The notes under the pieces are model-generated. The model saw nothing but the letters and a program-made list of their open reading frames with translations, did not search any database and was not told the origin of the DNA. Position numbers and translations under genes: made by a program. Below, in pieces: positions 20,301 through 62,351 of a DNA stretch of 64,000 nucleotides (position 1 is the first letter of the stretch; each line of letters opens with the position of its first letter). The stretch is from NCBI RefSeq assembly GCF_036669915.1, contig NC_089318.1, forward strand, positions 11,619,071 through 11,683,070. The letters run 5' to 3'. Source of the stretch: Pocillopora verrucosa. Taxonomy: Eukaryota; Cnidaria; Anthozoa; Scleractinia; Pocilloporidae.

Positions 20301-23300
20301 CCTCCACAAACGAGGTTCTTGCAGATCTTGCTGCTTCCGCCGACAGCAGCAATACACCATGTAAATTGACACAAGAACAACTACAGGGATCCCTGTTGCT
20401 AAGCCAGCCACCAAGGCCACTAAATGCAAAAGAAATACATAATAGGTACAAAGTAGGCTCAGAATAAATTTTTTTTCAACAGTATTACATGTGACAAAAA
20501 ACATTTTAGCACATGTCAAATATCCTGGTTAATTAAGGCTTGGCAAAAAAACTATCATGAGGTGGTGTTGAAAGATATGAACTAGTCTGCAGTAAGATCG
20601 TAAATCAAAGACTAATTCTAAGCCCTAATATTATCCTTATTTCAAGTTGCCCTTTGAGCATGAAGAAATGTACAGCTTATTTTATTGTATCCTAATGAGA
20701 GGGCAAAAACTGTGCTCAGTAACAAAACAGTTCTAGACACAGCTTTTCTTCCTCTGTGGTAGTTTATCTATCATTATCAAATTAAAAGCTCATATTTATC
20801 TGGTAAGTGTTTTATTACAGACAATCAAATATCCTTCACACACCTAGGAAAAGAAATATACCCTTCATTAGCGCTACATGTAATTGTTTCATGGTTGATT
20901 GACCTTTGCTATCATAAATCATAGAATCTTACCTGAGTTATTCATGATCATTATTCAAGGGCAACATTAGCAGTGTAGTTCAGTTTTACAAACTTGCTAT
21001 TGAACACTATAAGACAAAGAAAAAACAATTCAAATTGATATGTCAGGGAAGTGAAGTTGGCAGTGTTCTATGCTCCTTAATAAGAAACACAACTAAAATG
21101 AAATTTGCCTACATCATCTCGCAGATCTCACCAAAAAACATGTATACTGCTTCAGAGGATTAAAAAGATTACAGGTCAGAGTTGTGATTGGAGAATTTCA
21201 ATCAATTTTGTCTGTTTCTGCTTTCAGATATCTGTTGCAATTGAGAGTAGCACAACAAAATCTGAAGTTTGGCCTTGAACCTTAAAGGTCACATTATTGA
21301 TAGGCAATAAAGTAAGACATCAGGCACCCATGCTGACAAACTATTTCCATTTGAAAACACTATTAGTAATGAACAACAAAAGATAGTCGTTGACTAGTTC
21401 ATGCTAACATGATTATAAATCTTATTAGTATCTTTTTGGGAATAAAATTCCCAATATTTAATTTGTAGTTAAGTTAACAACTGAATGGCACTAACGCAAC
21501 ATACTCATCTACTAATTTTTTTGTCTTTATACAGGAAGTGTTGAAACAAAAGGAATACTAGAGAAACATAACAATCATGAACAAAATTGCTATGTTCTCT
21601 TTTAAATTTCATAATTCCCACACTTTCTTTTTAGTAAGGTCACTTTCCTTTTAATTGGCCAGATTACTCCAATATTTCTTTACAATTTCTTTCAGTCTTG
21701 AAATGGGCCCTCATTTCAAGCCCAAAAATGGTGATTTATGAAGAATTCAAGGCTGTTAGCCAGTTCCAAAATGCCTCGCTCTATGGGCTTTCTGTCTCAC
21801 TAAAGCTTTGATCTGGCCTTGTGTTTGATGAAGAAACAAAGTGTCTAAAAGAGTGTCTAACAGGTTGATAGGCATGTGCATGTGCATGTGCACATTGGCA
21901 TAATTTATGAACTCAAAATTTCTCCTCTACTGTAATGTTCAATTCCTTTTCAGTTTTCTTTTATTATTCTGGTACATATGTAAATCATGATTGTAACATT
22001 TACTATGCATGCCTTATCTGAAAGTGTGATTTTGGCCATCATGATCAGTTGCTGCTAGATGATTGGAAAAAACTTGACTAAATTTTGGAATGTTACCTTA
22101 ATTAGTTTACAGTCATTTTAACCTAGTATGTACAAAACACATCCAGATAAAGGGAATTGGCACAAATTTTCTCAGACAGACACTACTGGCAAAGAGGAAA
22201 AAATTGTCTCAACACCATAGAAAAATTACCCAGTGCTAGAAAATTAATTTTTGAAACTTGCACTTGTCTGTGACAAGTGACACTTAGAATACACTCGCCC
22301 AGATTATTTTCTACAAACCTTGCAGATATTCATCCAATCCTTTCACAACCCTTTGACACTTCAATAGAATCACTAAGTCCGACAATTAGTAGAGATTTAA
22401 GGCCTGACATCAGGATTATTTATCAAGATTGACTACTAATATGCATGCATAATGACTAAAAAAGTTAAGCATTAAGTGGCTGAGATAAAACATTGTCATA
22501 ATCATTTATTCTTTCAAATACAAAACCTCTTCACAGGGGTGCAATTCACCACCTGAATTTTCTTTGTGTTAGTTTTCTCTTAGATTGTTCTGCTATTCTC
22601 TCAACCAAGTCTCGCATTCATTTTCAAATTTTTTTCTACTTCATTCAAGAAGAAACACTGCACCACATGAATGATTTTCTACTTCCATTCAATTTAACAT
22701 ATTAACAATGTCTTGATTCTTTGTAAAATAGGTTCAGAAGAAATCAACAATTGCCACTGAAAGTAATGATTTTCCAAAAAAAAAAGCACCTCTAAAACAT
22801 TCACAAAAAATAAGATTCTTTACTGCATACTGTTACTTTAATGCTCAGAAAAATATACACCACAACCAGTCAGCTTGGACAAATGACAAAACAGGAAAAT
22901 AAAGTTGTGGAATTCAACAGCTTATAGTTCTAAATTTCCTTTAAAAATGGGGTTTTAAGTCATGATAAATTAAGGGGTTTTTTTAGTCATACTAACATGT
23001 TGTGTGACTCAGTTTTTGATTTTCCACAATAATCTATAGCCAACTAGGAAGAAAGGGATAATTAACCCTCCACCTGCTATTTTTGCTATTATGCAAAATT
23101 AGGACTATTCCTAATATATATTTGAAGAAGAAGGAAAAGCTAAAAGATTTGTCAATTTCTGAGAAACACAAATCTGTACATCAAACATTCAGATGGAAGA
23201 AATGAAATACACTGATTGTTACAAGTTTAATTTAGTTAAGTAATAACCCATTCGAAATAAATTAAGAAATTATCTATCTGCAGTGAATAGAAACTTTGGT

Positions 23301-38771: not shown

Positions 38772-40262
38772 AAAATCTGTTTAGGTTAACCTGGTGTTTA
38801 TGCACGCTCTTCGTAGAAATCTTAATTTTTTTTACCGTTGGAGGGAAGGGAAGGGGGGTTAGATAGAATGTCTGATTAAAAACTATCATTACCCCACCCC
38901 TTCAGCGTCGAATCACCACGATCCATTTCATTGTTTATTAAAACTCATTCTGGGTACGTATTTGTTTGTTTTTACATTTACACCAGAGAACACGGAAAAG
39001 TAAACATCCTACGCAAAAAACTGTAAGCTGTTCGTAAGCATTTTTCCCGCATATTGCAAAAATCTTTGAAGGATAATAAACATAATAGCCTCCATTCGGT
39101 GAAAAAAAATACACGGATATTTCTTGGACATTATCTGTTCCCCGAAGCTCAGCTTTGCTTTCGGAAAATTGTTCGCCTCTCCGAACAGATAATGTCAGCG
39201 GACAAATAACCTTGCATATTTGCGCGCAAAATGGAGGCTATTGTTTATATGTGAAACCTTATGGGGTATCGAATACGAAGTTATCTCAGGAGTCCACTAC
39301 TAATGAATAATGGGCTCCTGGTTATGTGAATGTTGTGGGTTACATTATTTCTCGCGAAAACTGATATGGTTTTTAACGAGGTTTATGAAATAACTGAGAT
39401 ACAACGTGCGCTCTGATTGGTCAACATTCCGGGTGTGATATTACGTCGGTAAACCGATAGGAAGTGCGGTCTATAGCTCAAATGAATGTACGCAGAAAGT
39501 TTGGTGAACACAGGAGTAACCTAACAGTTGCACGAGGTGCAGCCAATACTAGCCCCAAATTCTTCATGGAATCTTTTACATAACAAGAAGCAAAAAGCCG
39601 ACTGTGTCACTCAGCTGACTGTGTCACTCATGATTTGTAAAAGTTTAAATATGGAGTCCGTAGTAGAGGCGAAAGCAGGTTGACTAATGTGACTGAACAT
39701 TTATTTACAAATAATTCCATTGAATAATTGTAATGATAATATTTTAAAGGTCTCAGCTTTGTAAAATTATAATTCTTGCTTAATGATAATGTTATTTTTG
39801 GTAATAAGATGAATTAAAATTATTGGAAAACTTAGTGAGAAGAAGGCTTAACTTTTAAGCCTTTTTGACAGCGTAATTTCTGTTTCTTGGATTCTCTTCT
39901 TCGAGCGATTCCTTTCCATTTCTTAAAGATCAGCGTAAAAGCAACAGAATCTATCTTATGTGAAAAATGCTTAAAAATCTTCCTCTGACACTAGAGATAA
40001 TGTATTTTTATCTTTCGCCCGGCACATTCTCCATACATTAGCGCCTAAGCAGTGTCAATTGCTATTAGTATATAACAATAACTGACTTTTTCTAACGACA
40101 CTTTCTCGATGTAAGCGTGCATGTAACGCTATTTAAGCTGAGTGAAGGGGTCTAACTCATTGCCCATTTTTCTTTTTTGTAAATCAGTCGGGAAAGAGTA
40201 GTAACTAATGTACATTTCGTTTGTATTAAGAGATGTAAAGCCACGATAAGGTGGACTTCAAT
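38772..40262. other. Spacer between the converging 3' ends of MUS81 and the PDZ giant
   Basis: No exon is supportable. It holds the foldback element at 39076-39251, a short direct repeat of GACTGTGTCACTCA near 39598-39632, and presumably the minus-strand 3' UTR of the PDZ gene. A TTTATT (AATAAA on the minus strand) at 39700-39705 is one possible polyadenylation signal. Confidence 0.45.
39076..39251. mobile_element. Foldback (MITE-like) element, family B, about 175 bp
   Basis: The left end ATAAACATAATAGCCTCCAT is mirrored by ATGGAGGCTATTGTTTAT at the right end, with a 2-base indel. A second inner inverted pair, ACATTATCTGTTC (39128-39140) and GAACAGATAATGT (39184-39196), flanks a small central stem (CGAAGCTCAGCTTTGCTTTCG). 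Nested pairing across nearly the whole length and lack of coding capacity fit a non-autonomous hairpin transposon. Confidence 0.75.
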
Positions 40263-43200
40263 TCATTTATCCCAAAAGGAACGCAAACTTTGTACGGAAG
40301 GGCCACTTGTGGACGTTCCTGTTGACGGGTCTCCTCCAGCACTCTCAGGTTGGCTCTTTTGCGATTGCTCTCTGTCATCTCGGCTAGAAAAGAGACTCTC
40401 GGGTGTTCGCACTCTGGGAACTGCTTCCAATCCTCGAAGCATAGATTTACCATCTGTACTTACTTGGTAGGACGCTGATTGGATGCTAGTTCGGCCCTCG
40501 ATGGAATACCTCTGTCTTTCACGTTCTTTTTCGCCTGACGTCTTGACACCTTTAACATGAGGTACTTTGGACAAACTTACGCCACGTCTTTCACCAAGAT
40601 ATGGGTCTCTCTCTGGTGATTTTGCATACAGTGGCTGGTAAAGGGTGCCTTGTTGTAATCCTCTGGAATAATGCCTCATCCAGGGATCGTCATTCTTGTC
40701 ATCCACATCGACAGGAACAGAAACTTCCTTTTTCCATGAAGTAGTTTGGTATTTGGAAACAGGTTTTATGGCACCAATATCCACTTGTAGAGAAATGGGT
40801 TCAATTTGAGACGAATGTGATGTGACCGTTACCTCCTGAACACTGCTTTTAACGTCTGTAACTGATGTATGGTGTTCATCTTTCGCCGTGTCTAATCGAT
40901 CAACCGCGCCTAATTCAGAATCCGTCTCGGTCATTACGGGTGTCAAGTTAACATAGGCAAAACTGCTTTCCACCTTTGTTATTGATGTGCTGTAGCTTGT
41001 GGTAGCAGGACTGTCTTCGACAGGTTTCGCATCAAAAGAAACGAGATCAGGTTTGGAAGCCTTTAGCGCTGTGTCTCTATCTTCTAAATCACCACTTCTT
41101 TCTTTAGGATGTTCGTGGTCGTCGATGTGGATTTGGTAGGTCACCACATTAAGGGATTGTTGAGTTTTTTCCGAAATGCTGCTGTCTATAATTTCTATGG
41201 GCTTGGTTTCGTAAAAAACCTGTTCTCCCTCTTCGTTGTGTTCTTCCGTGTTCTTTGATCTTGATTCCGAATTTGTGTCATTATCGTTGAGTATAGGCTG
41301 CTCAATTAGATAACCTTGCATTAAATCCCAAAGACGAGAGTTGGAACCTCGCCTCGAAGTTTCTTTAGGGCTTTTCTCCCTTGGCGATTTGACATTGTCT
41401 TCAGCTTTTGTGGGTGAATCGCTTTTTAATCGAGGTTCATCTTCAGTATAATTTAATGCGGCTAGCTGCGCTGAAATGTCTGGTATTTCTCTTTCCTTTG
41501 TGTGCTGTGAGATTTGTTCTTCATCTGTCAGATGGCCATTCTGTTCATCGAGTACGAATACTTTATTATTTTGCGGATATTCAAGGTAGAAGTCATGGCT
41601 AGGTTCAGTAGCTTGAATCTCCATAGTGTTAGAGAAATTTGGAGATTTTTCCTCCCTGATGTCATCTGCGTCTTCAGTGACAGGTGACGTCCTCTTAAGA
41701 GAGCGTGTCACTATAATAAGCGATTGTTCACGGATCTCATGGTTTTCATCCCCCGTTGGCGGGTCATCTTGAATTGTTACATGAGATACATCCTCAAAAG
41801 TATGGGCTTGTACGTCCCATGTAGGAGACACGCGGTCCCTTTGGTTAGGTGATAACAAATTTGGTGCATCACTTTCCTCAGAAGGCTTCGATAGAACCGA
41901 CACATCTGGGACATCGTAGTCCAATGACCGAAACTTAAACAATGGGACAACGCCTTCTTCTTGCACGAATGCACCATCGTCCTCTTCAACCTGAGCGACT
42001 CGGCAAGGATAGTCCAGATGATTGGAAACCTCTCCTGGTGGCTCGTTAAATTGAAGTTCTATAGAACTTACTTTCAATTCATCCTCGTGTTCAGTGTCTT
42101 GATATGGTCTTTTAAGGGAGCGAGATACAACTACAAAAGGATCCTCTTCTACACCTGAGGGATTTGTTTCCTGTGTTTCGGATGCGTAATTATGGGTTAC
42201 AACATAGTCCACTGCTTTGTACTGATGGAGTGATAGGTCCAATGAAGAAGGAAGGTCATCTTCCTCCCGTTTCGTTTCTGTGGTTGCTTGATCTTTTGGC
42301 TTGGGTAGATCATTCAACTCGCTGACGTTGTAACTTGAGATCTCTTCATCCGACGAAGACGAGGAACTCGTAGGTTTCTGCTCTTTTGATGATATTTTGC
42401 CGCTTAGCATCAACGAGTCATGAGTTACTTCTTCTTGAATATCAAAGGTTATCGATCCTGACTTTCCTGGTTCCTTTATTTCATCAGCCACTGAGGTAAA
42501 TGTTCTGTCGTCCACTTTGTAGGTCTGCTTTTTCTTGTCATTTTCTTTCGCTTCATCAGATGATGATGAACTCCTTGATTTCTTTCGTTTAAGTAAGTCT
42601 TGATGATTTAGGCCAAAGGAACCTTCATCGGAGGACGAAGAAGATGAGCTTGTTTTCGGTTTTTGCTTTTTCAAATTCAATCCTGAAACAAAATCAGCTG
42701 TGGGACGGTTTTGATCTTCGTTATCATCATCTGATGAAGAAGAACTTGTTGAGGATTTCCGTTCGCTCGCTTTCTTTTTGGACGAGGAACCACTCTCCTT
42801 GGACGATGCTGAGCTGTTTGAACTCTTTCGGAACACCTGTGGTAGTTTGGACTTCTTTTTTCGTTTTGACTTCTTTTCCTTGTCATCCTCGGCATCAGAA
42901 GAGGATGAGGAGGATGATGAAGATGAAGTACTTTTTCTCTTTAATGAAGATGGTGTATCTTTACCTTCATGGCCCGGGAGTTCAAGTTCAATTCTTTGCT
43001 TAATTTCACGATCTAGAGTTAATATTCTGCTTGGAGAAGAAGGCTCCTGGACTGATGCTGAACAAACTGTTACGTTTTCTTCGACTTTTACCAGGTTCAT
43101 TTCACCTGGCTTCCAATTATCCACATGAAGGTTTGCATCTGAGATGTCTGCATCGAAGTTTAGATCAGATTCGTTGGGTTGATTTGGTGACAATAGTCTC

Positions 43201-46200
43201 AGTTCCATTTCTGGTCGTATTTCATCGTAACGTTGAAGACTGTGTGGTTCTTCATACGCTACCGAGGGGAGAGACTCTGGTTTACTGTGGAGTTCGATGT
43301 TATCGTAGGTACTTGCGAATTCTACATCGCCTTCGACTGGATTTGCGTCAAAGTCTATGCCCCCAGAATCTTTGGGTGTTGAGGTACTGATACCCCAATC
43401 AACATCACCTTCAAAACTCTTCCCTCTAAGACCTTTCATGTCAACTGGTTCTAACGATGCTCGTTTTTTATTTGGTGATGATACAGTGAAATCTAATTCC
43501 GGTGCATCAACATCTAATCCCTTCATGTCAGCCTCTAATTGTTGCCGTAGGTCTACAGCTGGAGCATGAACACTTATTCCGCCTGCTGATGGCATGAAGA
43601 TATCTGGTTTAGTTCTGTGCATTTCTTTGCCTCTAGGTTTAGGTACGTCAAATGCAGTCAATTCTGAGTCAGTGCTTGGTTCGTCTGCTACTCCGAGGTT
43701 AATATCACCAGCTGTGGTGTCAAACGAGGGCCCAGATATATCTGGCCTCTCAACAGAGACTCTTGACGAATTCATGCTTGGGTCGAACCCATCAATTCCA
43801 ATATCGTTCTCTACTCTGCCCATTGATGGTCCAGATAAGTTATGCTTTTCATGTGAGAAGTCTGGTCCTTTTATATCTTGTATTCCTGCACCTATACTGG
43901 GTGGTTCCGATTCAAAGTCTGGTTTTTCAATATTTGAAGCATCCAGGTCAAACTTGGACCTTTGTATATCAGTGTTATCAAAAATTCTCCGTAGCGAGGA
44001 CCCCGAAATCGTTGACGTCTCATATGAATTTTTAGGTGCATCAAATCCTGAACCTCCGATGCTTGGATCATATAATACAGGGAAATCCAAGCAAATCTTT
44101 GATTTTTCAGCAGATGGATCTGTATCTGTTAAGTTGTCTGAGATGTCGGGAGGCTCCAAAGATATTCCTTTCTTCGGCCCTTGAGAGTCAACGTCTGGTA
44201 CAATTGTACTGAGTTCCAGCCCTTCAGTCGTTTTACGTCCATCAAAATCAAACCCAGAAGTACTTATGTCCACTTTGCTAGGTTTTTCCATCTCCAGTGA
44301 TCCATCAGGGCCACTGATGTTGTAGCCGACACTCCCCTTAGTCTTTCTATAAGGGTCCTCTTCGTCCCCATCTCCTGCACAAGCCAAACAATTAACGCGC
44401 TTTTTCTTTGAAGATGGCAAATTCAATTCTCCTGAAGGTGCGTTAACTGTTGTTCTATGGCCTTGTAGTTTACCATCTGATACATCAACATCCGGGCCTG
44501 AAATACCTCTTTCAAATCTTCCCTCTGGTCCATCAATGTCTGGGGAATTGCCTTGTACTTCAACGCTTGGTCTTTCAGACGAAAAGTTTCCTGTTCTAGA
44601 AAGGTTGAAACCTGTGCCTCCCGATGGAATAGATACATCAGGGGTATTTATACTTGGATCCTTTCCATGAAGTGAAATCTCCGGCGTTCCTGTGGAGATT
44701 CCCTTGTTTTGTCCATGGAAATCAAGGTCTGGTTCAGCTGTTCTGAGTTCGAGTTCTTTTGTTGCTGCAGGTCTATCGACATCAGGCGTAAAAGCAGTTG
44801 TGTCAATTTTACTGGGTTGCACCATCTCTAGTGATCCATCAGGGCCGCCGAAGTTATAGCCAACATTTCCCCTAGTCTTCCTGTATGGGTCAGCTTTATC
44901 CCCATCTCCCGCGCACGAGAGACAATTAACGCCCTTTCTTTTTGTAGAAGGCACATTCAACTCTCCGGAAGGAGCGTCAACTTGTGCTCTAGGGTCTCTC
45001 AGTCTACCCTGTGATATATCAGCATTTGGGGCTGATATGTCTGTATCGAATCTTCCTCTTGGACCATCGATGTCTGGGGAATTAGCTTGTGCTTGAACTC
45101 TGGGTCGTTTTGAAGTAATGTCTCCTGTCCCAGAAAGGCCGATATCAGTACTTCCTGGTGGAATAGATACATCTGGGGTATTTATACTTGGATCTTTTGT
45201 ATGAAGTGAAATTTCTGGCGAGCCCGTAGAAATGCCTTTGTTTGGTCCTTCGATGTCAAAATCTGGTGCAGTTGTTTTGAAGCTCAAGTCTTTCGTTTCT
45301 TCCTGTCCTTGGAAGTCTGGTGCAGAGGCACTTATGTCCATTTTGCTAGGTGTTTCCATCTCTAGTGATCCATCAGGACCGCTAAGGTTATAGCCGACAC
45401 TTCCTTGAGTTTGAGTCTTTCTGTACGGGTCGTCTTTATCCGCGTCTCCTGCACACGACAAACAAGTACCTCGCTTTCTCTTTGAAGATGGCAAATTCAA
45501 CTGTCCAGAAGGTGCGGTAACTTTTGCCTTAGGGCCTCCCAGTTTATCATGTGATATATCAGCATGTGGGGCCGAAATTTCTGTATCGAATCTTCCTTTT
45601 GGACCATCGATTTCTGGGGAATTAGCATCTATTTCAACTTTAGGTCGTTCTGAAGAAATGTTCCCCGATCCAGAGAGGCCGATAGTAGTGCTTCCTGATG
45701 GAAGCGATACATCCGGGGTATTTGTTCTTGGGTCTTTTGCTTGGAGGGAAACCTCTGGCGGTCTCGTTGAGATTCCTTTGTTTGGTCCCTCGATATGAAA
45801 GTCTGGTCCAGTTGTTCTGAGGTCCAGGTCGTTGGTTTCTCCACGTTCATGAAATTCAGGTGCAGAAGCGGTTATGTCCATTTTTCTGGGTTCCACCATT
45901 TCTGGTGATCCATCAGGGCCACTCAGGTCGAAGCCAACATTTCCCTTAGTCTTTCTGTATGGGTCTTCTTTATTTCCGTCTCCTGCACACGAGAAACAAT
46001 TACCACGGTTTTTCTTTGAGGAAGGCAAATTCAACCCACCAGCGGCAGGAACGTCAACATTTTCCTTTGAGCCCTTGAGCACCCCAGATGAAGCATCGAT
46101 GTCTATGGGATTGGTATCTATTTTAGCTTTCGGTCGTTTTGAAGAAATGTCTCCTGTTCTAGAGAGACCAATATTAGTGCTTCCTGGTGGAAAAGTTTCA

Positions 46201-49200
46201 TCTGGGGTATTTATACTTGGATCTTCTGCGTGGAGGCAAATTTCTGGCGGTCCCGTTGAGATTCGTTTGTTTTCTCCTTCGATATCAAAGTCTGAAGGTG
46301 CTGAAATGTCTGTATTGAATCTTCCTTTTCGACCATCGATATCTGGAGAACTGGCTTGCATTTCAACTTTAGGTTGTTTTGAAGAAATGTCTTCCGTTCC
46401 AGGGAGGCCGATATTAGTGCTGCCTGATGGAATACGTTTTTTCATCTCCAATGATTCATCAGGGCCCCTCAGGTCGAAACCAACATTTCCCTTACTCTTT
46501 TTGTACGGGTCGTCCTTGTCCCCATCTCCTGCACAAGACAAACAATTTACGCCCTTTCTCTTAGTAGAATGCAAATTTAGCTCTCCAGAAGGAGCATTAC
46601 CTTGTACTGTAGGGCGTCTCAGTTTACCGTGTGATACGTCAGCATCTGGGGCTGAAATGTCTGTACCGAGTCTTCCTTCTGGACCATCGATGTCTGGGTA
46701 ATTGGCGTCTTTTTCAGCGCTTGATCGTTTTGTAGAAATGTCCCCTTCTCCAGAAAGACCGATATCAGTGCTTCCGTATGGAATAGACACATCTGCGGCA
46801 TTTTTACTTGGATCTGTTGCGTGGACGGAAACTTCTGGCAGCCCTGTTAAGATTCTTTTGTTTGGTCTTTCCATATCAATGTCTGGTCGAGTTGTTTTGA
46901 ATCCCAAGTCAGTTGTTTCTTCATGGCCTTGAAAATCAGGTGCAGAAGCACTTATGTCCACTTTTCTAGGCTTTTCCGTCACTAGTGATCCATCAGGGCC
47001 GTTCAGATCGAAGCCAACATTTCCCTTACTCTTTTTGTAAGGATCGTCTTTATCCCCATCTCCCGCACACGATAAACAATTTACACCCTTTCTTTTGGTA
47101 GAAGGCAAATTCAGCTCTCCAGAAGGTGCGTTACCTTGTGCTTTAGGGCCCCTCATTTTACCATGTGATATATCAGCGCCTGGGGCTGATATGTCTGTAT
47201 CGAATCCTCCTTTCGGGCCATTAATATCTGGGGAATTTGCTTCTATTTCAAATCTAGGTCGTTCTGTGGAGATTTCCCCTTCTCCAGAAAGGCCAATACG
47301 AGTGTTTCCCGACGGAAAAGATACATCTGGGGCATTAATACTCGGATCTTTTGCGTGAAGGGAAATTTCTGGCGGTCCCGTTGAGATTTGCTTGTTTGGT
47401 CCTTCGATATCAAAGTCTGGTCCACTTGTTTTGAGGCCTATGTCTTTCGTTATTGCATGTCCTTGAAAATCAGGCCTGGAAGTATTTAGGGCCACTTTGC
47501 TACGTTTTTCCATCTCCATCGATCCATCGGGGCCGCTGAAGTCATAGCCAACATTTCCTCTTGTCTTTCCGTAAGGGTCGTCTTTGTCATCATCTCCCGC
47601 ACAAGACAAACAGTTAACGCGCTTTTTCTTGATAGAAGGCACATTCAACTCTCCGGAAGGAGCGTCAACTTGTGCTCTAGGCCCTCTCAGTTTACCCTGT
47701 GATATATCAGCATTTGGGGCTGATATGTCTGTATCGAATCTTCCTCTAGGACCATCGATGTCTGGGGAATTGGCTTCTGCTTGAACTCTGGGTCGTTTTG
47801 AAGTAATGTCTCCTGTCCCAGAAAGGCCGATATCAGTACTTCCTGGTGGAATAGATACATCTGGGGTATTTATACTTGGATCTTTTGTATGAAGTGAAAT
47901 TTCTGGCGAGCCCGTAGAAATGCCTTTGTTTGGTCCTTCGATGTCAAAATCTGGTGCAGTTGTTTTGAAGCTCAAGTCTTTCGTTTCTTCCTGTCCTTGG
48001 AAGTCTGGTGCAGAGGCACTTATGTCCATTTTGCTAGGTGTTTCCATCTCTAGTGATCCATCAGGACCGCTAAGGTTATAGCCGACACTTCCTTGAGTTT
48101 GAGTCTTTCTGTACGGGTCGTCTTTATCCGCGTCTCCTGCACACGACAAACAAGTACCTCGCTTTCTCTTTGAAGATGGCAAATTCAACTGTCCAGAAGG
48201 TGCGGTAACTTTTGCCTTAGGGCCTCCCAGTTTACCATGTGATATATCAGCATGTGGGGCCGAAATTTCTGTATCGAATCTTCCTTTTGGACCATCGATT
48301 TCTGGGGAATTAGCATCTATTTCAACTTTAGGTCGTTCTGAAGAAATGTTCCCCGATCCAGAGAGGCCGATAGTAGTGCTTCCTGATGGAAGCGATACAT
48401 CCGGGGTATTTGTTCTTGGGTCTTTTGCTTGGAGGGAAACCTCTGGCGGTCTCGTTGAGATTCCTTTGTTTGGTCCCTCGATATGAAAGTCTGGTCCAGT
48501 TGTTCTGAGGTCCAGGTCGTTGGTTTCTCCACGTTCATGAAATTCAGGTGCAGAAGCGGTTATGTCCATTTTTCTGGGTTCCACCATTTCTGGTGATCCA
48601 TCAGGGCCACTCAGGTCGAAGCCAACATTTCCCTTAGTCTTTCTGTATGGGTCTTCTTTATTTCCGTCTCCTGCACACGAGAAACAATTACCACGGTTTT
48701 TCTTTGAGGAAGGCAAATTCAACCCACCAGCGGCAGGAACGTCAACATTTTCCTTTGAGCCCTTGAGCTTCTCAGGTGAAGTATCGACACTTGGCCCAGA
48801 AAGCTGTGTTTTTAGTCTACCTTGCGACGTTTTGATATTTGGCGAATAGCTATTTAGCTGTACATTGGATCCTAAATCCCTTTGCTCTTCGTCGAGCGAT
48901 GGTCCCGTAATTTCTCCCGTGACATTTTTGGCCGGAATAGAAATGCCAGGTTCTCTGACGCTCAAATTATCTGTAAATTTACCACCCTCATTAATATCAA
49001 CAGAACAATCATCACTCGGTCTGTCCCAATCCATTCTATTACTTGTCTTCCCTCTGGTGTAAGGCTCCCCTTTGTCTCCTTTGGATACACAGGAGAAACA
49101 TTTCGCACGCTTAGTCTTAGGTGAAGGCAAGCTCAGGTTTGAAGGTGAACCTTGAAGATTGTGTGGTTTCATATTCGGCCCAGCAATACGCGCCTGTGGT

Positions 49201-52200
49201 ATATCCCCCTCGAATTCTGGTTTACTCAGTGAAGTCTCCGTCTCTCCTAAATCTGCACTGCCTTGCAATCCTTCGACATCAAGGGAGGGGCTCCCTGCCT
49301 CTAGTCCCGGTTCCAAGTCAATTGCACAGGATTCGTCAATCGTTTTGGATAGATCCCGCGATCTCTCCGATAAGTCCAGTGAACCTATCGGTGAGAAGAG
49401 ATATAATGGCATTATGGTGCATTCTATTTTATGGAATCGTGTCAGTTCTTTATAATACAAACTTTATCATTTCGCTTTATCATTTCAATTCATTCTCAAT
49501 CCTCAAATACAAATAATATGCCAACTTCTAGCACAGAGTCAACGTGAAAATGTTAACACGCATAATTTGGTTTTCGACGCCTATTTCTCGCGAATTCCTG
49601 TCGTAGAATAACGTAAATACCATGAGGCTAAACAGACTACCTACCATTTTGTCCTGGCGAGAGGTTTTTCAACAGTGTCAGTCTTAGCCTTGGTTTGTCA
49701 TCATTGCGAAGAAGGTGCATTGCTTTGTCATGAGCTAGGCCCTCGATCGGAGTTCCATTAATACCAATGATCTTATCACCTTGGAGATAACAAATTAGAA
49801 GGATGTCCTTTTCTGGAAGAATATTGATGACTTTTGGTCTGCTTTCTAGTTAGTTTTCATTAAGTACTACGTGTCTTGCGAATAAAATCTTCAATATAGA
49901 GTACCTGGAATTATGACAATTTATCATATCAAACAAATTTGAAAAAAAGAACATCTTTTCAAATTGCAGCGAGGTCTCTGAAGATGTTTCAGGTTTTTTA
50001 TTTTGGCGAGAAATTGCCATGTTCACCATGAATTAAAATTCGTCAATTATGGTGTCGCTCTGTTACCGCGTAAAATTTCTGAGGTGAAATGTTTACGATC
50101 ATCCTTGTGTAACATACGTAAATATAACGTACAGTGTCGTTACCTTTATCCAGGAGACCTGTTCTCGCAGCAACACCACCGGGTGTTACTTCTCTTACGA
50201 ATAAAGCGGGAGGTGGCAAAGTCTTGTCCCTCGCAATCAAGAGTCCAAAGCCACCATTTTCAGGTCGGTCGAGATCAACATCAATGGTTTCCTGTCGAAA
50301 ACGACGGATAAGCAAGAGATATATATAAAAAAGTCTTTTTGGGGGTGAAGATTAAAGCTGATGTGTGTTTCTCAGGAAAGAGAGTCATTTATACCGGTAA
50401 TGCTTATAACATTAATAATGATAATGACAACGGCAATAAAAATTATAATGATGTTGACAAATGTTGATAATAGCAATTAGCAAGTACATTATTCAACTAT
50501 TATATAAGAGCGACAGCATTTGGCTCTTATAAGGGTGAGAGATCTATCTTGGATAATGCAGGTCATTTTTATGCTCACAATAGACTAGACTTGAAGTATT
50601 TATTGAATAAGCAAAAGCGCTCTGATCAATTTTATTCCTATCTATTTTTTTCTAGTTTTTTCGGTAACTGAAAATACGGGCTAAGATGTTCGAAAGGCGG
50701 AAAGCGCTAAATATTGGATGAAAGAGTGAGACTGCTTATATTTACTTTTTTTCAAAACTCCTATGCTACAGACGTTTTGTGTGGTTTTATTTAACCATAA
50801 GGAAAAAAGAAAGTAAAACATTTTAGGCGATAATTTTTCTCTGCAAAGTGACTTATAACTATAGCCCCGAGTTAAGTTAACTTTGCTGTGGACATACCGC
50901 CTTCGTATTGCAAGTATAGCTATGGCTCTACATTAACGAAACAGAAGAATTGAATCTTGAGGAGTGCGGTCAAATACGTAGAAACTGATATTGACTTAAT
51001 TCAAAACTTAAAGAACATCGCTAACCATATTCCTTGGTGCGTCCACGTTAAAGGTTGGTTCGGAGGAGCCCTCAAAGGCAATATCAACGTCTGAACCAGG
51101 AATATTCCCGCCCGGAAAACCTGTTCCTGATGGTTTGTTATGTTGGAACTCAACATCCGAGAGCTGAGCATCTCTTGGAGACATTTTGAGGCTGCTTCCA
51201 TTTGCCACATTCATGCCAAGATCGGTGTCCATGTCAAGATTTACAGTAGGAGTTTCCTTGTCTGGATCTCCGCCCATATCAATTTTTACCTCCCCTTCGT
51301 TACAAGAAGGAAGTTTGAATTTACCATCTCCATCCATGTCAATTTTGACTTCGCCATCGTCTCTAGATGGCATTTCAATCAGTACTTCTCGCTGCCCACC
51401 AAATGCTGGATTAACAACTCCCCTTGTGTTGTACGCTGTTCGAAACAAACAAGCAAACAAACAAACAAAATCACAATCGTAGGTTATTTAGCCATTAGCC
51501 AAAATTTAAAGGATCGTTGCCGAATGTAGACGAGCGAAGTAGTTGTCAAATAAAAAAGGAACATCAACGTTCAGAAAGAAACTACGTCACACAAATTGAG
51601 ACAAATCTGAAGCATATTTAAATAAGATTAAACATTATAAACCTTCCTAATGCAATCAATCTATTATTCACACAAGATGCATTACTTTCCAAGCAAAACA
51701 CTACTACCGAAAAAAAACCAGTCTTATTTGTTTAAATAGTATATCTAATAACGTAGGGCACAAACCAATAATTACAGTTCCACTTATTACATGGTCATGC
51801 GGCTATTTCATTTTACACAAATAACGCAGATAATCGTCGGAGAGAAGCTTCAATTTCACTACAGATCTCTCCGACCTGGGTGCTAAATAGACACTTATAA
51901 AGAAATGTTCAATTTGAATCCTGACCACAAAAACAGCGAGTGTCAACAAAATTAAAAGACTCTAATTTCAAAAGAAACAAAGCATCGAACAATAGAAAAA
52001 ATTTTCCATTGAAACAGACGGGAGATGGTGTTGCAGCGATTTTATTAAGTTATAGTATTGTTCTAAATATGTCGTGGCTTAGGCTGTTGTGTATTTTTGC
52101 CGATGGGTGTTCTGTTTGCGTCTGGATTATTCAGGAGATACTTTTCATTCCTTTTGACCTCTTTCTTTTGGATGACTTTGTGTGTTAGGTTAGGTAATTT

Positions 52201-53079
52201 AAAGTTTTGTAAGCTCCACATTAAGAAGGTCTCATCCCTGAAATCTCCAGATCAATCCGTATCTATGCATTTTAAACTGACGCAATGCGCAAAGAATGAC
52301 TGTCATGCGGTGTGCAAGACGTTTTCGATGTATCTGTAAACTTCTGTCACCTTCTATGAAACTCTGGGCAACCAACAATATACAAATATCCACCGCCAAG
52401 CGATGTAATGACTATTCTTTCCTCAAAAAGTCGAAAATCATGAGCAAATATGTACAAAACTCTTATAACTTAGTATTTTTTTTAAATAGCGTTCTCCAAG
52501 CGTTTGTTATATACGTGACATGATCAATCAGTGTAATAACAAGTCATAGAGCGAGGGCTTTCTAGATTCTTCAAACTTTCAGTGCTCGAGTAATCTCGAA
52601 AAAGATAATGACATTTATGGAAATGAGCTAAAGGACAATGAACACTTCGGTGACAACGTAGGTGAGGGTTTGTTGTTGAAACAAGGAAAGACATTTTAAC
52701 ACAAAGACATCCTAGTTGCAGAGTGCCAAGGTTGCAATTGAACGGTTGGTAACTTATAAGTTCTGAAATAGAACGAACTGAGTTAAAGCACAGCTCCAAT
52801 TTCGACATGCTTCAGTGCTGCACAGAGAAAATATTCTTCGCTGTCATACTCTCATCGAGCATCTGAAATATTCAGTCACCGTCTTTTGTAACATTGTCAA
52901 CTTCTTACTGAAGGAACTTCACTCAGTTGAAAAACGTGATTGTGAACGTAGTTGATGCAGTGATTAAAAAATGATCATTTTATCGTTTGAAAAGTGCTGT
53001 AGACAATCACCTCAGTGAATTCACGAGTATGGAAGCCAATACAAGGCATACTTATGCCTAAATCACGACAAAAATGATG

Positions 53080-53115
<36 letters not shown>

Positions 53116-53762
53116 TTAATGATAATAGTAATAATGATAAAATAGCTTCGAAATACACGACTGTTGCAAGCAGTTAAAACTCGAGCTTAACCTTAAGAGG
53201 CCGCACTCTTAAACTAGAAAGAGAAAACTGACAAGTTTGGACGCGTACCATAGCAATTTTAAGTATGCAGATGATTCGATATAAACTGAAATGGCACAGA
53301 CAGGATTGTATCCACTATTCCCATTTTTCTTACCAGCAGATGGTGCTTCTTCTTTGTAGTGATGTGAAAAAGTTACCGGAGTTCCATGACCATTTAAACC
53401 AATCTGACCACCTTTGGCTTTTGTGCCGAGAGAAATTTCTGGTTCACTGGCGGTTTCTATTGAAGACCTTGACGAGAGTTTTCCTGCAGCAAGAGAACTC
53501 AAATGTGAGCAGCGCCCTTTGAAATAGAAATTCAGTAGAATAAACTGAAACAAGTTAACATCTAGGCAAATAAACTATCATTACCTGATCTTTTTTGGCG
53601 ACAACACCAAACCAGTATCGCAATACCTGCGATAAGAAGAATCACACCTATTGTACCAAACACTGAAGCGACTATAGCGCCCGTACACTCTGACGCAGCT
53701 CTAACATGACTACTTTGGCAACAGATGATCAAGCACACTAACAGAGTGCTTTTAATAACCAT
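40263..53762 (-). CDS. Giant single-pass membrane protein with PDZ domain and AHNAK/periaxin-like repeats
   Basis: Six exons on the minus strand (53762-53585, 53516-53334, 51435-51026, 50291-50144, 49779-49645, 49384-40263) join in phase into about 3391 residues. Residues 1-22 look like a signal peptide (STLLVCLIICCQSSHVRA). A few outside residues follow, then a helix at about 28-54 (VFGTIGVILLIAGIAILVW) and CCRQKR. A Ser- and acid-rich segment leads to a PDZ domain at about 258-345, split by one intron: GGFGLLIARD carboxylate loop, VAARTGLLDKGDKIIGINGT. The last exon encodes a ~180-residue repeat array (about 440-2020), a region of Ser runs mixed with Lys clusters (about 2500-2710), and an acidic tail ending SLRSFWDK. 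PDZ followed by long IPDVSIP/GPDFDIEG-type repeats recalls AHNAK, AHNAK2 and periaxin, cytoskeletal or membrane scaffolds; those lack a signal peptide and membrane helix. A scaffold role is inference. I recognise no exact orthologue. Confidence 0.82.
44945..46080 (-). repeat. Internal duplication block, downstream copy
   Basis: This about 1.1-kb block recurs at 47633-48768, offset by exactly 2688 bp. I count about seven differences, most of them in the first 150 bases at the low-coordinate end. The high-coordinate border is sharp: both copies share CCTTTGAGCCCTTGAGC, then diverge. Confidence 0.9.
47633..48768 (-). repeat. Internal duplication block, upstream copy
   Basis: Partner of 44945-46080. 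It covers two repeat units with the markers RGNCFSCAGDGNKEDPYRK and RGTCLSCAGDADKDDPYRK. The rest of the array is much more diverged between units, so this pair is recent relative to its surroundings. Confidence 0.9.
53081..53114. repeat. AAT trinucleotide microsatellite
   Basis: About eleven AAT units lie in the intron between the second and third exons of the PDZ giant. It is far from either splice site and probably neutral. Confidence 0.9.
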
Positions 53763-56179: not shown

Positions 56180-57560
56180 GATGAAGAATCACGATGTTGA
56201 GATAAAATTGCCTCCATTAATAAGATATATCGAGACAGCTTTTACAATGACATCTTAACCAAATCAGACAACATAAAAAAAAAGATGTGGACAATATTAA
56301 TTTATTGATAAATAATAAGCGGCCAAGTTCTCATATAGAAAAGCTACAAGTAGAAAATAAACTGAATGCGAACAACCTTTTACCATCTCCAACTGCCTCA
56401 ATAAATTTTTCTGTAATGTCCCTCTTACATTAACTGATAGGAGTGCAACATCTTATCTTTCCCAGAAACAAAAAACATTTTGCTTCTCACAAGTGTCTGC
56501 AATACAGGTATTTCTATTGCTACAAAGTCTTGATACGAAGAAATCATTTGGGATTGACAAGACTCGTCCACTTTTATTAAAAACCGCAGCACCGCAAATA
56601 TGCCGTCCTTTAACTTATATTTTTAATCTTTCTAACAACCAAGGTATTTTTCCAGGTAGTATGAAACTGGCAAAAGTTGTTCCAGTTTTCAAAGAAGGCT
56701 CTCGTTATACATGTAACAAGTATCTTCCTTTTTCAGTTCTCTCTTCCACAAGTAAAAATATTTGAGAGATGTATTTTTAATCAGCTTATGTCCTATCTTA
56801 CGAATGAAAACATTATTTCCTCAAAACAATATGGATTTAGATCAGGTTATACAACCTCTGACTGTCTAATTAATATTATTGAAGAAATGACTTCTCCTCT
56901 TGATCAAGGACACTAAGTGCTTTCTTTATTCTTAGACCTAGGTAAAGCCTTCGACACAGTAAATCATCAAATATTATTAAATAAATTTGAGTATTACGGC
57001 CGAATTACAACAAAGCGAAAATAATAAGCTCCAATCTTACTTAAATAACAGGAAGCAGCAGGTGCTTTCCTACTGGATTATATGCGGACGTTACATCTTT
57101 AACAGCTTCTGGAAGTGATCTTGACAATTTGTTGTGTGAAATTAACAATCATTTGCCAGCTGTCTACGGTCATACCCTCATTTCGAACTTATCTCAAGAG
57201 ATTCTGCCCGAGCGTTATCGGAAGATTCTTTTGGAATAGTATTCCACAATTAATCAGAGACAAACCATTTAAAAAGATGATTAGAAAAGCAATTTTACAC
57301 TGGTACCTTACCGGGTGATATAGTGGAAGCTGATAGCTTTCAGCATTTTAAATCTAAACTTAAATTGTATCTCAATATTTAACTGTATAGATCTTGATTT
57401 TTATTTTATTTTTATTTACTTATTTATCTTATTTTAAGGGAGTTTTTACATAGGGTTAACCTCCAAACTTCCTTTTCTAGAAGTACCTTTTTTCCTTAGT
57501 TTTTAATTAGTATATATAGTTTGCTTCTAGAATAAATAAAGTATGTATGTAAATAAAGTA
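56180..57560 (+). mobile_element. Dead non-LTR retrotransposon fragment (CR1/L2-type reverse transcriptase)
   Basis: Broken reverse-transcriptase pieces follow in order: HIEKLQVENKLNANNLLPSP (about 56335), KKSFGIDKTRPLLLKTAAP (about 56540), then a frame change, SKQYGFRSGYTTSDCL (about 56825), a stop, and [19 protein letters not shown] (about 56930). After a deletion comes YADVTSLTASGSDLDNLL (about 57080), where the catalytic YADD has become YADV, and finally a C-terminal SVIGRFFWNSIPQLIRDKP (about 57210) in another frame. The 3' end has AATAAATAAAGTATGTATG, a tail like that of related elements. No intact open frame remains; 5' parts with the endonuclease were not found. Confidence 0.82.
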
Positions 57561-60038: not shown

Positions 60039-62135
60039 CTAGGAGGGTTGAGTTTTTCCTTCAGTCTGTGAACTTTCCTCTCCTGCTGACAAAGACTTGT
60101 TGTTTAACTCTTCCTGTAACAAACAAAAGTCATTCCCATCAGGAACTTTTAATGAATTTTGGAAAAGTTCCTCTTTGTATTCAAATTGCTCATCTGAATA
60201 ATCAGCTTCTTGGGAAGGAAAGGAAGTAGAATTCTTTACTGTGGTTTTCTCTGATACTTGAGACACTGCTGGTTTGTTAGAATCATGATCATTTGGCAAA
60301 ACTTCAATGTCATGCCAGTTAACATTTTCTGTCTTCTTTGGATCAGTGTAGCAATGATTAGAAGGACCTGTTTCCACTTGCTCTGCTTCAGAGGGCTTGC
60401 ATGAAAGCTGTTGGATTTTGCTGCTCAGATATCTATCTTCCCCACTGTAGTATTCCCAATTAAAAAGAAGGTCTCTGCCAGTAAACTCACTTTCATCTGG
60501 ATCAAAAATCACACTGTTGCTCCTGAGGCTTGGGGCTCCTTCTATACCAGAATCGTCATCACTTTCAGGAAGGCAAAACACATTGAAGCTGTGGGATCGC
60601 CCATAAGGCACATCTTGGCTCAGGTTAGTATCACCCTGGAGATTTTCAGGACTGCTACTTGCACGTGACTTGATAGGGTATGAGTTGAGTTTGGCAGTTT
60701 CCTTCTGTGTGATGGGTCTCTTATCGAGGATCAGCTTCTTACCTTTAAAGTAAGACAGGACAACAATCCTGTAGGGCTTCACTCTCGTAAAAGGGTTTCC
60801 AGCAACTGTCAGGTACTTCAGATGGGAAATCAAACATAACTTAGAAATTTCCCTCACAACATGGATTTGATTGTGACTCAGATTCAATTCAATGAGTCCA
60901 ATGAGACAGTCTAATCCATTGACTGTCTCAAGATTGTTGTAGCTGACATCAAGTGACTTGAGGTTTGACAGTTCTCTTGGCATTCCTGTGATGAAGTGGA
61001 TGTTGTTGTGAGACATATTCAGATATACGAGACTTGGGCAACATAACTGTTGTACATCCAAATGAACAAATTCGTTATAGCTGACATCTAGATTTTGTAA
61101 GACAGGCAAGAGTTTAAGAGAGGCATCCAATGCTGCCAGTTTGTTGTGTGTTACAGTGAGAGTCGTAAGCTGACACCATGGTTGAACAACTATTCGGTTT
61201 TGCATCAACCTTGCTGTTGTAACACTTCTCCATGACTCTGCAGGACCTTTTATTTTGGGTGCTAGACGCTTCTCAGTGGCACAGTCTACAAGGAGCTCTT
61301 TTAAGGTGGTCAAACAGTATCTGGTTGTCAGATTTGTAATCTGTGCTTGAACTTTTGACATATTGTTTATAAGTGTCAATGGGCAGCCATCAATTATCAG
61401 ACTGCTTAGAGACCTAAACAAGGAAATATCAAATTCCAGATGACTAGAAAGCTCTTGTGAACTTGTAGCCTTGTTCAAAATACTACTAACACACAGTGAT
61501 TTCAGCTGATATATAAAATCATATAGATTTCCTAGATCTCCAGAATCTGCCTCGTCTACTGCATTAGTCGGTTTCGGTAACTTTAGCTGCCGCGTTAAAC
61601 AGTAAAGCTGAGTAGGTACAAAAGTGAAACTTTCTCCCTTGGCCAACACTTCCTCACCCCTTTGAGACAAATCCTTCGCTAGGGCATTTGTCACAGCCAT
61701 GACATCGTGCCTTTGGACCTCTAAGAACTCAACAATTTCAGGAGAACTCGACACGTAGGTACTACTGTTCACTAGTCGCTGCAGGTAATGTTCTAATGCT
61801 GCTTTCCTCTTCTCAAGAACCGACAATGCCATATTTGATATAAGCTTTTTCGGTGGTAACATATCCTTAGGGATGCCGTAAAGTTTTACCAGTTTTTTGT
61901 GGAGTTCATCAAATTCTCTGTACCTCCGAAACACGAACCAGTGATTGGACTTAGTCATTACATCGATTTTGTACAGTGCATGAGGTGAGGGATGTGTTCT
62001 TTGCCATACTTCCCTAATGACGACATGTTTGATTGAAGGAGACGAGTCACTTTCGCTATCAGACCTCAGTCGTCCACGATCCTTTCTCCATAAAGCACTC
62101 CCGGCTGGAGGAAGGAAACCTTTCAATGAAGTCAT
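60039..62135 (-). CDS. NISCH: Nischarin-like protein (PX domain plus leucine-rich repeats)
   Basis: A 698-residue frame in one exon. The first ATG (62135) gives MTSLKGFLPP; the frame extends two codons further upstream without another ATG. A PX domain spans about 35-150 with FRRYREFDELH and LPPKKL, which in this family bind phosphoinositides on endosomes. A linker (about 150-310) precedes five or so leucine-rich repeats at about 325-455 (LQNLDVSYNEF, LVYLNMSHNNI, LKSLDVSYNNL, LIELNLSHNQI, LKYLTVAGNPF). The Ser/acid-rich C-terminal 200 residues lack a clear domain. Human nischarin is about 1500 residues and binds integrin alpha5, PAK and Rab14; the long vertebrate C-terminus is absent here. 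PX followed by LRRs makes the assignment firm. The lack of introns is unusual and should be weighed against a retrocopy. Confidence 0.92.
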   Translation of the reverse strand: MTSLKGFLPPAGSALWRKDRGRLRSDSESDSSPSIKHVVIREVWQRTHPSPHALYKIDVMTKSNHWFVFRRYREFDELHKKLVKLYGIPKDMLPPKKLISNMALSVLEKRKAALEHYLQRLVNSSTYVSSSPEIVEFLEVQRHDVMAVTNALAKDLSQRGEEVLAKGESFTFVPTQLYCLTRQLKLPKPTNAVDEADSGDLGNLYDFIYQLKSLCVSSILNKATSSQELSSHLEFDISLFRSLSSLIIDGCPLTLINNMSKVQAQITNLTTRYCLTTLKELLVDCATEKRLAPKIKGPAESWRSVTTARLMQNRIVVQPWCQLTTLTVTHNKLAALDASLKLLPVLQNLDVSYNEFVHLDVQQLCCPSLVYLNMSHNNIHFITGMPRELSNLKSLDVSYNNLETVNGLDCLIGLIELNLSHNQIHVVREISKLCLISHLKYLTVAGNPFTRVKPYRIVVLSYFKGKKLILDKRPITQKETAKLNSYPIKSRASSSPENLQGDTNLSQDVPYGRSHSFNVFCLPESDDDSGIEGAPSLRSNSVIFDPDESEFTGRDLLFNWEYYSGEDRYLSSKIQQLSCKPSEAEQVETGPSNHCYTDPKKTENVNWHDIEVLPNDHDSNKPAVSQVSEKTTVKNSTSFPSQEADYSDEQFEYKEELFQNSLKVPDGNDFCLLQEELNNKSLSAGEESSQTEGKTQPS

Positions 62136-62351
62136 TCCCACTAATTAAAACGAACTATGTATTCTTGCCTAGATTTTTGTAAAACAAATTCGCCCAAGTG
62201 ATGTTTATATGATTTCTGTTTGAGAACAAAATGATTCCCATGACTCTCACAAAGCTTCAGTTCTTTTTCACTCAGGCCCAGACTTTCTCGTCAGTAACCC
62301 AAGTAGTCTTACATAAAGTATCATTCTCTTCATCTCTTCTCGGGTTTACGA
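62136..62351. promoter_or_regulatory. Compact bidirectional promoter region, nischarin-like gene and PYROXD1
   Basis: Only 216 bases separate the two start codons, which face away from each other. Both 5' UTRs and core promoters must fit here or overlap, unless an upstream non-coding exon exists. No clear TATA box was seen. Confidence 0.6.

Follow-up and report, generated by a model that had tools for sequence, protein, structure and literature searches.

Predicted gene at the locus

We analysed a 64,000-nucleotide stretch of the genome of the coral Pocillopora verrucosa (NCBI RefSeq assembly GCF_036669915.1, contig NC_089318.1, positions 11,619,071 to 11,683,070; C7:11619071-11683070 in our genome searches), hereafter called the window, in which the minus strand from 53762 to 40263 is predicted to carry a gene for a membrane-anchored protein with one PDZ domain and a giant repeat tail. 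Its six exons (Table 1) splice in phase into a single open frame of 3380 residues, which starts with an ATG at 53762 and ends with a TGA at 40265-40263, the sole stop codon of the spliced frame, and all five introns are of the GT-AG type. The sequence-only reading of the window had proposed a signal-peptide-like start, one hydrophobic helix, the motif CCRQKR, a PDZ domain and a tail of about 3000 residues joined in phase, and all of these elements are present in the 3380-residue frame. Judged from sequence, this combination of membrane anchor, PDZ domain and giant tail is real as a gene prediction, and it is unusual.

The reading frame of exon 6 extends over 3066 codons without a stop. Because of this length, and because the ratio of nonsynonymous to synonymous substitution (dN/dS) between the repeat units is below 1, a chance open frame was ruled out. 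Codon log-odds, trained on three reading frames that adjoin the gene, are positive in the proposed frame for exons 2-6, at 0.17 to 0.34 per codon, and each of the five introns scores below zero. When donor sites were scored against a 9-position consensus, those of the gene model reached 6-7 of 9, values of at least 6 and 7 being attained by 15.4% and 3.9%, respectively, of the 3473 GTs of the minus strand. Exon 2 is coding-like, and its stop-to-stop frame contains no Met; with a second possible acceptor, in frame at 53516, it would be 11 residues longer (GRCSHLSSLAA). Intron 2, at 1.9 kb, separates exons 1 and 2 from the remainder. The start codon of exon 1 lies in the context AACAGCATGG; just 5′ of it, an upstream open frame of 18 codons (17 residues and a stop; 53838-53785, minus strand) was noticed by eye and could be a translational regulator of the gene.

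Predicted membrane-anchor exon

Exon 1 encodes a signal-peptide-like segment, about six residues that include Cys26, a hydrophobic helix and, after the helix, the stop-transfer sequence CCRQKR (residues 53-58). The hydropathy score KD19 is at least 1.6 in just two stretches of the 3380 residues, 2-20 and 24-57; it rises to 2.64 in exon 1, and beyond residue 60 the best window gives 0.82. By hydropathy rules, the protein therefore has the make-up of a type-I single-pass protein, namely a signal-like start, a single helix and basic residues next to it, with cleavage and topology as predictions. Among the 163 ATG frames of the window with at least 59 open codons, exon 1 alone shows the signal-plus-transmembrane pattern, and none of 618 frames in ten dinucleotide-shuffled windows does, under thresholds that were chosen after exon 1 had been seen. 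Exon 1 is thus supported by its content.

PDZ domain and its sequence matches

The PDZ domain occupies residues 251-331 (PF00595, E 1.2e-14, 54.9 bits against a gathering score of 23.2) and is divided between exon 4 and exon 5 by an intron in phase 1, placed before G-D-K-I. Pfam detected no further PDZ within the first 382 residues of the spliced protein, and none in the giant exon. How does it compare with the PDZ domains of AHNAK, AHNAK2 and periaxin (PRX)? First, it covers PF00595 from position 2 to 80 of 81 (58.4 bits), whereas in the same comparison the PDZs of PRX and AHNAK2 match only over 2-51 (29.1 and 31.1 bits); DLG4 PDZ1 scores 84.7 bits. Second, alignments place a His at the alpha-B1 position of the window PDZ, as in DLG4 PDZ1-3, in contrast to the Tyr of PRX and AHNAK2. 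The window PDZ is accordingly not of the divergent AHNAK2/PRX type, with a match that ends near position 51 and a Tyr at alpha-B1; on its sequence it is a complete canonical domain with the class-I histidine. By the standard rule, a His at alpha-B1 specifies class-I ligands, and such ligands are predicted here for that reason.

Third, DLG4 and the InaD-like protein (PATJ) head the PDB matches of the window PDZ, and among the best 60 of its 439 matches neither periaxin 4cmz nor AHNAK2 4cn0 appears; these two structures rank first when AHNAK and periaxin PDZ sequences from outside the databases serve as queries. Pair scores of the window PDZ are 108 for PATJ, 96 for DLG4 PDZ1, 82 for AHNAK (a sequence not taken from a database, aligned over the first half only), 57 for PRX and 48 for AHNAK2; DLG4 PDZ2 and PDZ3 fragments were included in this scoring and left out of the tree. 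The tree comprised 19 short rows: 10 of the 74 PF00595 matches of the genome (local alignments), five PDB-derived pieces, PRX, AHNAK2, the window PDZ and one AHNAK row not taken from a database. It united AHNAK, AHNAK2 and PRX in a clade with support 93/89, and the window PDZ lay outside on a long branch. Forcing it to join the clade costs 2.4 log units and is not rejected with these 19 short rows (approximately unbiased test, p-AU 0.18).

In the PF00595 search of the genome, the PDZ of this gene is not among the 74 matches, and its division between two short exons is the presumed cause. Since genome searches miss PDZ domains that are split in this way, the outcome of a periaxin PDZ query against the whole genome (six matches, none in this gene) is a weak negative.

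Repeat tail

The giant exon contains ten repeat units defined by a CxxC motif, at residues 436, 574, 752, 932, 1110, 1288, 1470, 1648, 1828 and 2006. The spacing ranges from 138 to 182 residues and is 178 residues in five of the nine intervals. The units carry a basic-CxxC-PY motif, and the ten residues that precede CxxC have a net charge of +3 to +4 in all ten units. An alignment of nine units has 29 invariant columns, 21 of which cluster near C-x-x-C-A-G-D and D-P-Y, within positions 1-46; the first unit is at most 34% identical to any other. Across 21 pairs from seven of the ten units (the first unit and two recent copies being omitted), dN/dS is 0.16 in the 48-column CxxC block and 0.56 in the remainder. 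Comparison of the first unit with these seven gives 0.26 for the block and 0.41 for the rest, at a dS near 2. Purifying selection is stronger on the CxxC block than on the rest of the unit, and the ten K/R-rich CxxC modules, regularly placed, are the most conserved portions of the tail.

Two adjacent units form a block of 1136 bp that has been duplicated in frame, and the copies differ at seven positions. The duplication is very recent, and the number of units could be polymorphic. The long units are absent from the output of Tandem Repeats Finder, and self-comparison detected no internal repeat in residues 2481-3380. Pfam gave nothing significant on the giant exon, the CxxC module included (best E 0.18), and of 52 pattern matches to the repeat in contigs of prokaryote genomes and 56 in viral contigs, none was confirmed as a relative. 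The C-terminus, SFWDK, is not an obvious PDZ-binding motif.

In a charge-hydropathy plot, six segments outside the PDZ, from residue 60 on, fall on the disordered side, most of them slightly (-0.01 to -0.09), with exons 2 and 3 jointly marginal on that side. AlphaFold2 modelling of one repeat unit from a nine-row alignment returned a mean predicted local distance difference test score (pLDDT) of 39.5 and no confident fold, and a folded repeat unit was rejected on this score.

Table 1. Features of the predicted gene, in window coordinates
Feature	Position	Strand	Remarks
Exon 1	53585..53762	-	Signal-peptide-like segment, hydrophobic helix, CCRQKR; hydropathy, frame census; codon use not supportive
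Signal-peptide-like segment, residues 1-22	53762-53697	-	Within exon 1
Hydrophobic helix, residues ~29-52	53678-53607	-	Followed by stop-transfer CCRQKR
Exon 2	53334..53483	-	Juxtamembrane linker; splice model, codon use
Exon 3	51026..51435	-	Linker; NPAF and acidic DG/DP-rich stretches (by eye)
Exon 4	50144..50291	-	PDZ first half; GFGL carboxylate-binding loop
Exon 5	49645..49779	-	PDZ second half; alpha-B1 histidine (LAHDKAM)
Exon 6	40263..49384	-	Giant exon, 9122 bp; residues 341-3380 and stop
Ten CxxC-defined repeat units	43902..49145	-	First and last divergent, sixth irregular
Recent duplication, copy 1	47633..48768	-	1136 bp, in frame, 7 mismatches to copy 2
Recent duplication, copy 2	44945..46080	-	1136 bp
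Ser/Lys/acid-rich stretch, residues 2481-2690	42336..42965	-	SSSSSS-D/E clusters, KKSKRKKKSK
Acidic C-terminal region, residues 2691-3380	40266..42335	-	Ends SFWDK
First AATAAA polyadenylation-like signal past stop	39700..39705	-	

Comparison of the tail with AHNAK and periaxin repeats

The sequence-only reading had called the tail AHNAK/periaxin-like. We compared it with AHNAK and periaxin repeat sequences that were not taken from a database. The periaxin half of the claim fell away: the periaxin repeats gave no signal against the tail in local alignment or in profile comparison, and a periaxin-like tail was rejected on these sequences. The AHNAK half held at the level of motifs, with one profile control against it.

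Might the gene then be a genuine though divergent relative of AHNAK, one of ancient origin with a PDZ and AHNAK-type repeats, which either became membrane-integrated in this lineage or lost its anchor on the vertebrate side? When two of these AHNAK units were aligned locally with nine units of the window, the first being left out, the score was 208, a value above all repeat-preserving controls (100 of each: at most 82 for columns, 96 for reverse-rotation, and 101, 125 and 180 for blocks of 2, 3 and 6) and above 60 dipeptide shuffles (at most 160). A tblastn search of the window with an AHNAK repeat gave 62.0 bits at 47966-47094, and the reversed query gave no match; block shuffles of the query reached this score in 0 of 30 cases with blocks of 6, 0 of 30 with blocks of 12 and, on the other side, 5 of 30 with blocks of 24. 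When a human AHNAK repeat of 256 residues, likewise not from a database, was searched against the whole genome, 15 candidates were scored and seven of them matched at E ≤ 10. Six of these lie in the giant exon, the best at 8.3e-6; the seventh (C14:4004502-4005023) is a long EPPKPAE simple-repeat array at E 3.3e-5, which indicates that low complexity alone can go far in AHNAK-repeat matching. Profile comparison of the unit with the AHNAK repeat gave a probability of 46.6% against 0.4% for the reversed unit, but block shuffles reached the real score in 3 of 40 cases with six-residue blocks and in 13 of 40 with twelve-residue blocks, which counts against the likeness.

These sequence comparisons lead us to conclude that the tail's likeness to AHNAK is real at the motif level and that descent is unproven. 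Common ancestry also draws on the giant exon directly after the PDZ, as in AHNAK and AHNAK2 (PMC10682155), on the AHNAK PDZ being the closest of the three family PDZs (82 against 57 and 48, with the first half only aligned), and on the common PDZ clade that the tree test did not reject. It is opposed by the position of the PDZ outside the AHNAK/PRX clade and its higher scores with PATJ and DLG4, by the origin of the AHNAK text outside the databases, by the block shuffles and the simple repeat just described, and by a usual unit of 178 residues with a CxxC module where AHNAK has a 128-residue unit and periaxin has dissimilar repeats. On balance we regard an AHNAK relative as unlikely, though a serious alternative. 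We consider still more doubtful the wider proposal of a membrane-integrated AHNAK homologue outside the vertebrates, by which the scaffold would predate the vertebrates and would once (or in this lineage) have had a signal, an anchoring transmembrane helix and a functional PDZ of class I, the soluble, domain-swapped AHNAK/periaxin proteins of vertebrates would be derived, and the ten polybasic-CxxC modules would represent a novel type of repeat that binds membrane or zinc.

Genomic context

The genome searched was the 353.4-Mb assembly in 52 contigs. Searches with the protein of exons 1-3, the repeat part and the C-terminal part (3, 2 and 10 candidates scored, respectively) each matched this gene only; by sequence, the gene is without a second copy as far as these three parts were searched.

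Pfam matches in the adjoining frames are to a Y-family polymerase, an ion channel, C2 domains, and PX combined with leucine-rich repeats; a further one has a weak oxidoreductase match below the family cut-off. We regard the ion channel, the C2 domains and the PX-leucine-rich-repeat frame as animal-like content. The polymerase is an uninterrupted frame of 834 codons at 6418-8925 (plus strand) with the IMS domains of Y-family DNA polymerases. On the minus strand at 17342-20528 there are two C2-domain frames and a third with a hydrophobic helix, CCCRRKQQ and a long polar linker; this third frame had no Pfam match, and the three together look like a synaptotagmin-like gene. The minus-strand frame at 60039-62144 (701 codons, single) combines PX with leucine-rich repeats, an architecture that we take to be nischarin-like. 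Fragments at 56361-56916 (plus strand) resemble, by eye, a reverse transcriptase of the long interspersed nuclear element type; one scanned piece of them had no Pfam match at 0.001.

Discussion

What kind of protein might this gene encode? We favour, at a probability of about 0.6, a type-I single-pass membrane scaffold that combines a class-I PDZ with a disordered, membrane-hugging tail and that would work in the manner of periaxin and AHNAK. The signal peptide (residues 1-22) would direct the protein to the secretory pathway and be cleaved after HVRA, leaving an ectodomain of about six residues whose one Cys might permit a disulphide-linked dimer, by analogy with CD3-zeta-like adaptors. The helix and CCRQKR would serve as the anchor and keep the tail on the cytosolic side. 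About 195 residues below the membrane, the PDZ would bind channels, receptors or adhesion proteins whose C-termini end in S/T-x-hydrophobic. The disordered tail of ~3000 residues would spread sideways, its ten polybasic-CxxC modules either touching the membrane through S-acylation or pairing through zinc, so that the tail would be held along the membrane or several tails bundled. Further partners might be recruited by the tail, with the Ser/acidic clusters among the possible sites. The outcome would be a long tether parallel to the membrane, which gathers membrane proteins and connects them with the cell cortex, much as periaxin and AHNAK do with no transmembrane segment of their own. The topology, the cleavage, the ligands, S-acylation or zinc binding at the modules and the cellular role are all predictions from the sequence.

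Several observations weigh against this interpretation. The codon log-odds of exon 1 is -0.09, an intron-like value and the lowest among its three frames; the exon-3 donor is weak (ATG|GTTAGC, 6 of 9); and in exon 5 an alternative frame with six stops scores higher than the proposed one (0.23 against 0.17). Residues 2-20 reach a KD19 of 1.65, which is compatible with a signal-anchor or hairpin topology. The ligand class depends on a single residue, and a low pLDDT obtained from nine closely related rows is a weak sign of disorder.

The hydropathy of residues 2-20, with only about six residues between the proposed cleavage site and the main helix, would also suit an N-terminus that is left uncleaved, the first hydrophobic segment acting as signal anchor or as one arm of a hairpin in a two-helix or reentrant protein with both ends inside. 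The hydrophobic core is, however, short (about 12 residues), and it ends in the small-residue -3/-1 pattern V-R-A, a pattern typical of cleaved signals; we therefore hold the uncleaved form to be improbable. Very improbable, in our estimate, is a cytosolic protein of PDZ and giant exon in which exon 1, and perhaps exon 2, is alternative, mis-joined or from another transcript, a reading with which the intron-like codon use of exon 1 and the length of intron 2 agree, but against which stand the signal, helix and basic stop-transfer with an in-phase donor (one of 163 open frames, none of 618 shuffled) and a coding-like exon 2 whose frame has no Met.

Taking the type-I scaffold as the preferred reading, we compared it with the closest known systems. 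According to the accessible part of PMC10682155, AHNAK likewise has one PDZ, a giant tandem-repeat exon and a long C-terminal region; that part describes no transmembrane helix and places the PDZ inside the N-terminal 251 residues and the unit length at about 128 residues. I-x-G-P-type motifs occur in both tails, whereas AHNAK units are not known to have the CxxC module that the usual 178-residue unit of the window contains. AHNAK2 has a PDZ and 24 repeats of 165 residues in an exon of about 17.6 kb, but its PDZ is a domain-swapped dimer, and no transmembrane helix is described for it (accessible parts of PMC10682155 and PMC8833689). In our comparison its PDZ matched only part of PF00595 (2-51 of 81). 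Periaxin (L-PRX) resembles the window protein in its PDZ-like domain, long disordered repeat tail and links to membrane complexes, and no transmembrane helix is described for it (accessible part of PMC6465933). It differs in that its PDZ-like domain is domain-swapped, with Tyr in place of the class-I His, and its repeats showed no likeness to those of the window.

Of the features that characterise the AHNAK/periaxin family, the PDZ upstream of a giant tandem-repeat exon (exon structure for AHNAK and AHNAK2 from PMC10682155) is shared by the window protein, and two others, the divergent PDZ type and the absence of a signal peptide or transmembrane helix (the latter judged by hydropathy only), appear not to be. 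The sequence-only reading had offered a membrane-integrated relative or a convergent scaffold; the architecture is supported, the tail is AHNAK-like at the motif level, and family membership is unproven, the PDZ being canonical and outside the family clade. PATJ/MPDZ and DLG provide the best PDZ sequence matches among those compared, with His at the same place, but they are cytosolic scaffolds with several PDZs and no known signal, transmembrane helix or giant tail, and the window protein, with a single PDZ and a signal/transmembrane-like start, does not share these features. Adaptors of the CD3-zeta/FcR-gamma type have a signal peptide, a very short ectodomain (a few residues, among them one Cys), a single helix and a signalling part inside; here the helix is uncharged and is joined to a PDZ and a giant tail, so that the comparison is an analogy only. 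As a functional model we would choose periaxin, for which PDZ-like dimerisation, links to DRP2/dystroglycan and beta4-integrin, and a ruler-like role of the disordered L-PRX chain across the membrane are reported (PMC6465933); the built-in anchor would be the difference.

Among the papers listed by searches of the open-licence literature (titles and the beginnings of abstracts, with subscription papers mostly absent), we found no cnidarian AHNAK relative and no such architecture.

Most PDZ scaffolds are soluble proteins that reach membranes through their binding partners. If our interpretation is correct, this scaffold would unite a transmembrane helix as its anchor with a class-I PDZ and a tether of 3000 residues; it would be self-sufficient in organising membrane domains, and unusual in this, and its CxxC module, which has no Pfam match, would offer a directly testable membrane- or zinc-binding motif. 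If, in addition, the likeness of the tail reflects ancestry, the gene would offer a means of asking how the vertebrate AHNAK/periaxin giants originated.

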